Positions 15,248-24,715 of a stretch of 25,967 nt of DNA are shown piece by piece (within the stretch, counting starts at the first letter, position 1; every line of letters begins with the position of its first letter). Where the stretch lies: positions 1 through 25,967 of the IMG/VR virus record IMGVR_UViG_3300014720_000164; one strand, 5' to 3'. A program made the position numbers and the translations under genes. Under the pieces are notes generated by a model, which saw only the letters and a list, made by a program, of their open reading frames with translations, made no database searches and was not told the DNA's origin. This stretch comes from a virus.

Positions 15248-15265
15248 TCAATACGTGTGTTTGAG

Positions 15266-15283
15266 GGGGGTTGTAAGACCCCC
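15266..15283 (+). other. GC-rich hairpin after the capsid gene
   Basis: GGGGG (15266-15270) plus T pairs with A plus CCCCC (15279-15283) around TGTAAG. There is no following T run, so it is not a standard terminator. It may protect the 3' end of the capsid message or slow transcription. Confidence 0.5.
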
Positions 15284-15326
15284 TACCAAACCAAAATTCA
15301 CTAAAAAAACTTAAACCAGAAATACT

Positions 15327-22825: not shown

Positions 22826-22858
22826 TTGTTACTTTAATGCTTTTGACATATATTTATA
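22826..22858 (+). promoter_or_regulatory. putative promoter of the HNH gene
   Basis: TTG (22826-22828), CTTTAA (22832-22837), 11 bases, TATATTTATA (22849-22858). The first 12 bases, TTGTTACTTTAA, are identical to those of the promoter at 23546. A leader of about 20 bases would precede the ATG at 22884. Confidence 0.65.
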
Positions 22859-22883: not shown

Positions 22884-23543
22884 ATGCCTAAAAAATTATA
22901 CCCCCAATTACAAGGTCTAAAAGGAAAAGAATACGCTAAAGCCTATAATAGACTAACTAGAGAAATACAAGAATGGAGATCTAAAGAATTACATAATGCT
23001 CTACCTTCAGATGCGCGTTTAATTCCGGATTATCCTACTTATTACGCAACTCCAAATGGAGAAATATGGCGTGATACGACTTTAGAACCTACCGCTATTA
23101 AACACGGGAAAAATCGAGTTGTAAAAATTAAAGATAGATACAACCCATCTTGTGGATATCATCAGGTACAACTATATCAAAATGGTAAACGTAAATTATG
23201 TTATGTCCATCGTTTAGTTCTTCTAGCATTTAAAGGTTATCCAGATCAACCTGGAATGGAATGTCATCACATTGATATAAATACTTCAAATAATTGTATT
23301 AGTAATTTAGAATGGGTGACAAGATTAGAAAATATGAGATATGTTTCCTATGAAAGACGATCAGTTAGTAAAAAGAAATATGGTACTGGTAGAAAATTCT
23401 CAGATAGTAAATGGGGATCATTTAGAAAACAAATTACTGATTTAGTTGATGCTGGACTAGGTAATAAAGCCATCAGTGAGAAATTAGGTGTTCCTGTTTC
23501 AACTGTTCAGTTTCATAAAAAAATGTACAAAAGATATTCTTAA
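22884..23543 (+). CDS. HNH endonuclease with NUMOD4-like and HTH parts
   Basis: A 219-residue protein of the free-standing homing endonuclease type. Residues about 45-100 resemble NUMOD4 (DYPTYYATPNGEIWRDT, then GYHQVQLYQNGKRKLCYVHR). The HNH core follows with VHRLVLLAFKGYP, the ECHHIDINTSNN motif carrying the catalytic His pair, and CISNLEWVTRLENM. The C-terminal 50 residues form a helix-turn-helix (ITDLVDAGLGNKAISEKLGV followed by STVQFHKK), likely for DNA recognition. It has its own promoter-like site after the late terminators and is followed by a second copy of that promoter. It could act as a mobile element that excludes related phage alleles. No intron ends were found around it. Confidence 0.85.
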   Translation: MPKKLYPQLQGLKGKEYAKAYNRLTREIQEWRSKELHNALPSDARLIPDYPTYYATPNGEIWRDTTLEPTAIKHGKNRVVKIKDRYNPSCGYHQVQLYQNGKRKLCYVHRLVLLAFKGYPDQPGMECHHIDINTSNNCISNLEWVTRLENMRYVSYERRSVSKKKYGTGRKFSDSKWGSFRKQITDLVDAGLGNKAISEKLGVPVSTVQFHKKMYKRYS

Positions 23544-23545
23544 GC

Positions 23546-23578
23546 TTGTTACTTTAAGGATATCCTGATATATTTATG
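23546..23578 (+). promoter_or_regulatory. putative promoter of the structured RNA
   Basis: TTG (23546-23548), CTTTAA (23552-23557), 11 bases, TATATTTATG (23569-23578). It starts two bases after the HNH stop. Start of transcription is expected near 23582, exactly where the first RNA helix begins. Confidence 0.65.
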
Positions 23579-23581
23579 TAT

Positions 23582-23755
23582 GACGGTTTGACTCCGGCTG
23601 AGAAGGAACAGTACCATCTAAGCATCACCAGCCCAGAGTAATTAACTCTCCGTCAAGGTTGCCGCCAATGCAAATAGCATCAGGCCTTGAAATGTGTAAA
23701 CCCTCTATAATACTAGCCTAAGAGAGCTAGGGGTGAAATTCCCACGGGATAGAGA
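23582..23755 (+). ncRNA. structured noncoding RNA, family unknown
   Basis: This stretch between the HNH gene and the next start has no good gene and shows many nested pairings. GACGG (23582-23586) closes on CCGTC (23650-23654). Inside it GGCTG (23596-23600) pairs with CAGCC (23629-23633) and AGAGT (23635-23639) with ACTCT (23645-23649), so a compact three-way junction results with almost no unpaired bases on one side. Then AAGG (23655-23658) pairs with CCTT (23685-23688) around ATGC/GCAT (23668-23671 with 23677-23680). A 3' unit closes with CTCTAT (23703-23708) and ATAGAG (23749-23754), enclosing CTAGC/GCTAG (23713-23717 with 23726-23730) and GGG/CCC. Base composition is richer in G and C than flanking DNA. 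The 103 bases after it (23756-23858) are A/T rich with no clear feature. It could be a free RNA or a long leader of the next genes. No known family is recognised. Confidence 0.65.
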
Positions 23756-23858
23756 ATAAGCACAAAGTAAAAAAATGCAAAAGATATTTTTTATACCCGG
23801 GCTATCTCTCTGCTTAATTAGATTTCGCTTTATTAGATTTTTTACTTATATTATCACT

Positions 23859-24128
23859 ATGAGAAACAAACGCGATAAAAAGTATACTTGGGAAACGTAT
23901 AGTAAATCTGCTCTTCGTAATCAACAACAAAAGACTAATACTGTATCTCAAATACACTCAGTACCAGATCATATTAAGTATCCATTCTTTAACATTAATG
24001 GAGTGCTATTAAAAGGTAAACATAAGGGTAAAAAATTAACTGAGGTACCTATTGATTACTTAATTTGGATGGTTGATAATGTTTCTTTAACTCCTAATCA
24101 ACTTCATACTCTTTCCTTATTGATCTAA
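23859..24128 (+). CDS. small DUF3820-like protein, 89 aa
   Basis: An 89-residue protein starting MRNKRDKKYTWETYSKSALR. Its second half has LLKGKHKGKKLTEVPIDYLI followed by WMVDN, the pattern GKxKGxxLxxVPxxYLxWLxxN of the DUF3820 type, which also occurs at the end of some exonucleases. The first part is basic and probably unstructured. The frame extends upstream to an ATG at 23775, adding 28 hydrophobic residues. I prefer 23859 because the hydrophobic leader overlaps the RNA tail region and is unlike related proteins. Nucleic acid metabolism is likely; the precise role is unknown. Confidence 0.65.
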   Translation: MRNKRDKKYTWETYSKSALRNQQQKTNTVSQIHSVPDHIKYPFFNINGVLLKGKHKGKKLTEVPIDYLIWMVDNVSLTPNQLHTLSLLI

Positions 24129-24178: not shown

Positions 24179-24715
24179 ATGATTTTAAATGAGAAAATAA
24201 ATAGATGGTTTAGCCAACATTTCTCTCATCTTCAGAACGAGGTGAAAACTAAGATTGCTGTGGATGGGATGAAAGAATATGCTGATGATCTACTATCAGT
24301 TTGTACTGAATCATTCCTCACTAAAACTCCAGCTCAGAAACAACAGATGCTGGATGATGATAAGATTGAGAACTATATCCTATACTGTTGTGGATTCCAA
24401 ATTCGTTCAGGTAATTCACCCTTCTACAATCAATTCAGAAAACATAAGATGAGATCTAGATCAGGAATGGTAGAATTTGAAAATACTCCATTCACCCCAG
24501 ATCAACAAATAGAAGATACAGAACTATACCAGTGCTATAAGCAAACTAGAAGTGAGCTACATTGGTACTATAACAAACTTTTATCTATGAAATGGGACGA
24601 TGATTTAACTTATAAACAAATTAGAGAAAAAACAGGTATTACTCTAAACTCAATTCAGAAAGATATTTCATTAGCCTATAACATTATTAGAGAAAGATGT
24701 CAACATTGTATATAA
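24179..24715 (+). CDS. putative phage sigma factor (sigma-70 family-like)
   Basis: A 178-residue protein. Residues about 20-90 resemble sigma region 2: helix KIAVDGMKEYADDLLSVCTE, then FLTK, then DDDKIENYILYCCGFQIRSG. A linker with PFTPDQQIEDTELYQC follows. Residues 120-172 resemble region 4, with a recognition helix-turn-helix (LTYKQIREKTGITLNSIQKD, then ISLAYNIIRER). The size fits a minimal two-domain sigma factor. Four promoters of one class in this window make a phage sigma factor attractive, but the link is inference. Similar small DNA-binding proteins could give the same helix pattern. The gene starts at an ATG with no Shine-Dalgarno sequence and overlaps the next gene by 19 bases. Confidence 0.6.
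   Translation: MILNEKINRWFSQHFSHLQNEVKTKIAVDGMKEYADDLLSVCTESFLTKTPAQKQQMLDDDKIENYILYCCGFQIRSGNSPFYNQFRKHKMRSRSGMVEFENTPFTPDQQIEDTELYQCYKQTRSELHWYYNKLLSMKWDDDLTYKQIREKTGITLNSIQKDISLAYNIIRERCQHCI

Follow-up and report, generated by a model that had tools for sequence, protein, structure and literature searches.

The window, i.e. the whole 25,967 bp of the IMG/VR virus record IMGVR_UViG_3300014720_000164, carries a folded RNA of ~230 nt, type C, which is almost certainly a real structured RNA gene, as its predicted helices show changes on both sides with pairing kept far above the level of slid controls. This previously undescribed RNA lies in a slot upstream of a sigma-factor-like gene, p4, which among related phages is occupied by a conserved RNA of type A, B or C, the three being unrelated, or by none of these.

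The segment 23582-23755 had been singled out in a sequence-only reading as a dedicated structured RNA gene outside the known families. This interpretation is supported by strong covariation, a promoter directly 5' of the RNA and the lack of an Rfam match, while the observation as first described is borne out in part. The segment, flanked by an HNH gene and small late genes, indeed shows no notable open frame and no conserved protein. It is also richer in GC than its surroundings, as had been claimed (47.7% versus 35.0% in the window, a value reached by only 0.04% of 174-nt windows), and Rfam, relaxed search included, returned no match for it, in keeping with its proposed distinctness from known families. 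When folded alone its stability is not above that of shuffles (z = -0.35); given this and the lack of an Rfam match, the single sequence alone does not prove an RNA. Five of the helices originally proposed (GACGG/CCGTC, GGCTG/CAGCC, AAGG/CCTT, ATGC/GCAT and CTCTAT/ATAGAG) still pair in sequence-divergent homologues. However, the AGAGT/ACTCT hairpin, held to be the second arm of a three-way junction in the 5' part, is missing from the homologues, in which ACTC/GAGT pairs instead; the 5' domain thus forms a stacked stem, and the real three-way junction belongs to the 3' domain. The end placed at 23755 also turned out to be too short, since the conserved sequence and a TGTGT/GCACA helix run to at least 23764 and conserved blocks to ~23806.

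Relatives were taken from IMG/VR via the terminase of the window and via p4; a p4 search of bacterial genomes recovered no relative. Type C RNAs were found upstream of p4 in seven IMG/VR relatives (L021, L024, L041, L047, L048, L063 and L087), of which L087 was added by a pattern scan and the other six by reading the DNA upstream of p4. A second pattern scan yielded no additional members. Alignment A4 comprises seven sequences, namely the window and six relatives, with L021 being incomplete at a contig end. Compensatory changes, proposed in the sequence-only reading as the check on its RNA, are present in these sequences: across 33 predicted pairs 93.4% of the cells pair, as against 35-47% with slid partners, and 19 of the 33 pairs have changed on both sides with pairing kept. 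The covariation score is 0.616 versus 0.283 for shuffled alignments (0/500 as high) and 0.05-0.11 with slid partners; as these seven sequences also served to derive the structure, the test leans in its favor, yet the slid controls fall far below. As the 5' domain was poorly aligned by MAFFT, the strands of H1, H1b and H1c were assigned by hand, with an upward bias on their pairing: their own strands pair in 103/103 cases, as against 31-61% when strands are swapped between sequences. Model R1, built from the aligned type C sequences, matches only type C carriers among 79 sources, its matches to its own building sequences being so by construction. In 299 genomes from the family of a Nonlabens genome, models R1 and R2 found no type C RNA and a single borderline type A match (E 0.008), which is not convincing. 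Phage records searched by BLASTN with types A, B and C gave nothing real, and a DNA pattern for type A matched 17 times in genome contigs, each match proving unrelated once read. A literature search that took in few subscription journals found no account of the three RNAs.

Comparison shows that the type C RNA has three conserved domains, a 5' stacked stem, a middle hairpin and a 3' domain (Table 1). In the 5' domain the counterparts of H1b in homologues, with hand-assigned strands, are CTTC/GAAG, ATTC/GAAT, CACT/AGTG and CATT/AATG. In the 3' domain the TGTGT/GCACA and CTCTAT/ATAGAG helices are paired in 100% and 96% of cells, respectively, and both sides change in 9 of 12 pairs. The loop of the GGG/CCC hairpin occurs as TGAAATT, TGTGATT, TGTAATT, TGAAAAT or TTAAATT, and this 7-nt loop, which keeps U1 and A5, appears T-loop-like. 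In the conserved tail the CTAT could potentially pair with an ATAG loop.

Table 1. Coordinates of the type C RNA, its parts and its neighbors in the window
Feature	Position	Strand	Evidence or remark
HNH endonuclease gene, upstream neighbor	22884..23543	+	Pfam HNH_3, 4.8e-13
Promoter of the RNA, TTGTTACTTTAA-N10-ATATATTTAT, Bacteroidota-like	23546..23577	+	Exact second copy; match in L006
Structured RNA gene, type C	23582..23815	+	Homologues and covariation; 3' end uncertain, conservation to ~23806
5' domain, stacked stem	23582..23654	+	H1, H1b and H1c kept in 7 sequences
H1	23582-23586/23650-23654	+	Pairs in 7/7 sequences, strands differing
H1b, ACTC/GAGT	23591-23594/23636-23639	+	Pairs in 7/7 sequences, strands differing
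H1c	23596-23600/23629-23633	+	Pairs in 7/7 sequences, strands differing
Middle hairpin, AAGG/CCTT and ATGC/GCAT	23655..23688	+	Covariation
CC/GG of middle hairpin	23662-23663/23683-23684	+	Covariation
Loop AAATA of middle hairpin	23672-23676	+	Invariant
3' domain, three-way junction bearing two hairpins and closed by TGTGT/GCACA and CTCTAT/ATAGAG	23693..23764	+	
CTCTAT/ATAGAG helix of 3' domain	23703-23708/23749-23754	+	
Hairpin CTAGC/GCTAG of 3' junction	23713..23730	+	Both sides change in 4/6 pairs
Hairpin GGG-TGAAATT-CCC of 3' domain	23731..23743	+	Stem invariant, hence no covariation evidence
A-rich conserved stretch and TATACCC-GGGCTAT tail	23764..23806	+	Conservation; too invariant for covariation
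p4, sigma-factor-like gene	24179..24715	+	Beside slot in all relatives used; PHROG, PDB

The promoter ends 5 nt 5' of the first helix, and from its position the transcription start of the RNA would lie at the beginning of the fold. The TTGTTACTTTAA-N10-ATATATTTAT arrangement is present exactly twice in the window, before the RNA and, as an exact copy of the whole unit, at 22826-22857 in front of the HNH gene; 100 shuffles gave none. The DNA upstream of the RNA in L006 is 88% identical to the window promoter over 35 nt. The RNA may be made as a transcript separate from those of its neighbors. The adjoining HNH gene encodes a 219-aa HNH_3 protein whose sole second match is HTH-type. Its place beside the RNA, by which the sequence-only reading located the segment, is incidental: slot RNAs occur without an adjoining HNH gene in relatives such as L052, where no HNH gene interrupts the series of tail gene, RNA and p4. 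The downstream gene p4 has relatives with matches to a PHROG sigma family (9 of 12, best 7e-8), and there is a weak PDB match to the sigma factor FliA.

In the window the slot upstream of p4 holds type C, whereas in phages other than the type C carriers it is filled differently. Of the 40 loci on the p4 tree, 19 carry type A, and more were recovered by pattern; this type is marked by a hairpin that is short and variable, together with an element of the form ACTTC-hairpin-TTGGATCAG, a helix of the CTCAG/CTGAG type and a tract rich in G. Type B is a structured RNA in L014, L029 and L062, i.e. three sequences only. The type B RNA of L029 (L029:1890-1927) contains TAAGGAGGTGAT, which matches a strong ribosome-binding sequence perfectly; the site differs by one base in L062. 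None of the three types has an Rfam match at E<=1, and the window and eight relatives have none at the gathering threshold. Some phages with slots lacking RNAs A, B and C have small protein genes there instead. In two such loci these encode DUF6291 proteins (L064:5121-5639, 2.6e-15; L025:8084-8512, 2.6e-7), whose genes either adjoin p4 on its upstream side or are separated from it by one ORF, and the other RNA-less loci carry different ORFs without an assigned family, not DUF6291. Several small ORFs near the slot (p3 at 23859-24128 in the window, L073:4242-4475, that following the RNA in L087 and those of several RNA-less loci) display by eye an L(S/T)xxQ-like motif followed by hydrophobic residues, and may form one family.

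On the p4 tree of 40 sequences the four slot states require at least 15 changes, where the minimum possible is 3 and the shuffled mean 18.4. The window pairs with L006 at 100/100; L006 is its nearest p4 relative (68% identical p4), yet bears type A behind a near-identical promoter. Other close p4 pairs likewise have unlike slots: L050 (A) and L055 (none), L014 (B) and L087 (C), and L073 (A) with L074 and L079 (none). An unrelated larger phage, of whose 47.9-kb contig L123 is a part, also has a type A RNA (L123:3884-3993), which precedes a glutaredoxin-like gene and lies ~1.7 kb upstream of a sigma-like gene. The slot is exchangeable, its content having been swapped many times on the p4 tree, and this pattern suggests that it holds an exchangeable RNA tool.

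The window appears to be a complete genome of ~26 kb, circularly permuted, from a group of 24-31 kb (G004-G012), given that its ends abut in L006 and that several contigs of the group start and end within the same gene. The host is probably a member of Bacteroidota, based on the promoter type and the nearest isolate portal protein, that of a Nonlabens phage (28%). The gene survey (PHROG and Pfam on most window genes, with the ORFs of nine relatives read) found packaging, structural, nuclease and sigma-like genes and no recognizable replication gene, which is weak evidence for its absence as many small ORFs without an assignment could be replication genes. The terminase comprises a canonical large subunit with Terminase_6N and 6C (nuclease) domains and a probable small subunit. 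A GAGGGGGG..CCCCCTA hairpin is present directly after the probable major capsid gene of the window (15262-15286), and long G runs occur just after the same gene in G004 and G007.

With a probability of roughly 40%, we favor the type C RNA being a trans-acting accessory RNA for host take-over or counter-defense. Under this proposal, the ~230-nt RNA would be made from its own promoter as a phage small-RNA gene and would act in trans, its tertiary fold serving to bind a protein or ribonucleoprotein of the host or the phage, potentially by way of the T-loop-like hairpin and the invariant AAATA loop, with host take-over or counter-defense as the outcome. Such a role would be dispensable, which would favor rapid replacement. 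An accessory function is indicated by the frequent swap of the RNA for an unrelated RNA or none while the terminase stays ~60% identical; the counter-defense role in particular is suggested by this exchange pattern only. Complementarity to the 3' end of 16S rRNA, as in a ribosome sponge, did not exceed that of shuffles for almost all type A RNAs and was mixed in type B; in type C the match falls mostly within the paired T-loop-like hairpin.

Alternatively, the RNA might be a structured 5' leader, either riboswitch-like or a processing element, controlling the p4 operon in cis. In most relatives the RNA does lie between the promoter and p4, its end and the start codon being only 13-37 nt apart without a further promoter between them, no terminator-like site was found 3' of the RNA in the window, and RNA-less loci often have a promoter directly before p4. 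However, in the window 380 nt and the gene p3 intervene between the RNA and p4, and a promoter-like site, recognized by eye, precedes p4 here as well as in L006, L047, L054 and L073, implying that p4 need not depend on the transcript of the RNA. Moreover, three unrelated folds precede the same gene and type A precedes a different gene in L123. A cis-acting leader is less probable than the trans-acting RNA, but a serious alternative. The T-loop hairpins of the FMN and cobalamin riboswitches are similar to the GGG-TGAAATT-CCC hairpin, but these riboswitches differ from type C, which has no Rfam match, an otherwise unlike fold and no metabolic gene downstream.

The trans-acting accessory RNA also has to be weighed against a replication-priming RNA analogous to ColE1 RNA II, which would form an R-loop priming the host polymerase and replace an initiator protein. 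The resemblance, drawn by description only, lies in a structured transcript with a G-rich and then A-rich end (in type A), and in the lack of a recognizable replication gene in the complete-looking 24-31 kb genomes of this phage group. The G-rich tract of type A is top or near top in most genomes checked, and the DUF6291 proteins just upstream of p4 in two RNA-less loci presumably resemble phage replication initiators. Against this, the G-rich tract is unexceptional in type C and, within type A, in phages G006 (L052) and L123, the remaining RNA-less loci carry different ORFs, there is no GC-skew switch at the RNA, and the small unassigned ORFs could themselves supply replication genes. Priming by the RNA is accordingly rather improbable; still more doubtful is the extended form of this analogy, in which a folded RNA would replace the initiator protein of these tailed phages, with three unrelated folds taken up for one and the same job and exchanged as plasmid replicons are.

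A packaging RNA acting with the terminase, like the pRNA of phi29, is very unlikely: phi29 pRNA is likewise a phage RNA of ~170-230 nt encoded alongside packaging genes, and in relatives such as L008 ~2.3 kb separate the slot from the gene for the large terminase subunit downstream, but pRNA is expected with a motor lacking a canonical nuclease-bearing terminase, whereas the type C phage possesses one, and close relatives with ~60% identical large terminases are devoid of RNAs A, B and C. An element acting as DNA, be it a signal for packaging or an origin, or what is left of a mobile element with the HNH gene that adjoins in several loci, can be practically set aside, as a folded single strand accounts for the compensatory changes, a promoter lies directly 5' of the RNA and slot RNAs occur in loci without an HNH gene (L052).

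Other known RNAs were considered and rejected. The best window matches to any Rfam 15 family fall far below gathering thresholds; neither ARAGORN nor Rfam recognized a tRNA or tmRNA; a group I or II intron with a homing endonuclease is contradicted by the lack of an Rfam catalytic core and by the intergenic position of the RNA; and an omega RNA or HEARO by the lack of an Rfam match and by a neighbor that is an HNH_3 protein, not IscB/IsrB-like. The closest parallels in general kind, though not in family, are GOLLD and ROOL, phage RNAs of undefined function that exceed 600 nt and are often found near tRNA islands (PMC12286853). Like type C they are phage-encoded structured RNAs, and in both cases unrelated sequences may serve similar roles; unlike them, type C is ~230 nt, without an Rfam match, and the window has no tRNA genes.

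Small phages of probable Bacteroidota hosts harbor three new structured RNA families, one of them with strong covariation support. A locus at which unrelated folded RNAs or none replace one another is unusual, and none was found in the literature searched. The close phages differing in RNA type provide a direct comparison route to function. If the RNA were to start replication, this would explain how 26 kb phages multiply without a recognizable replication gene.
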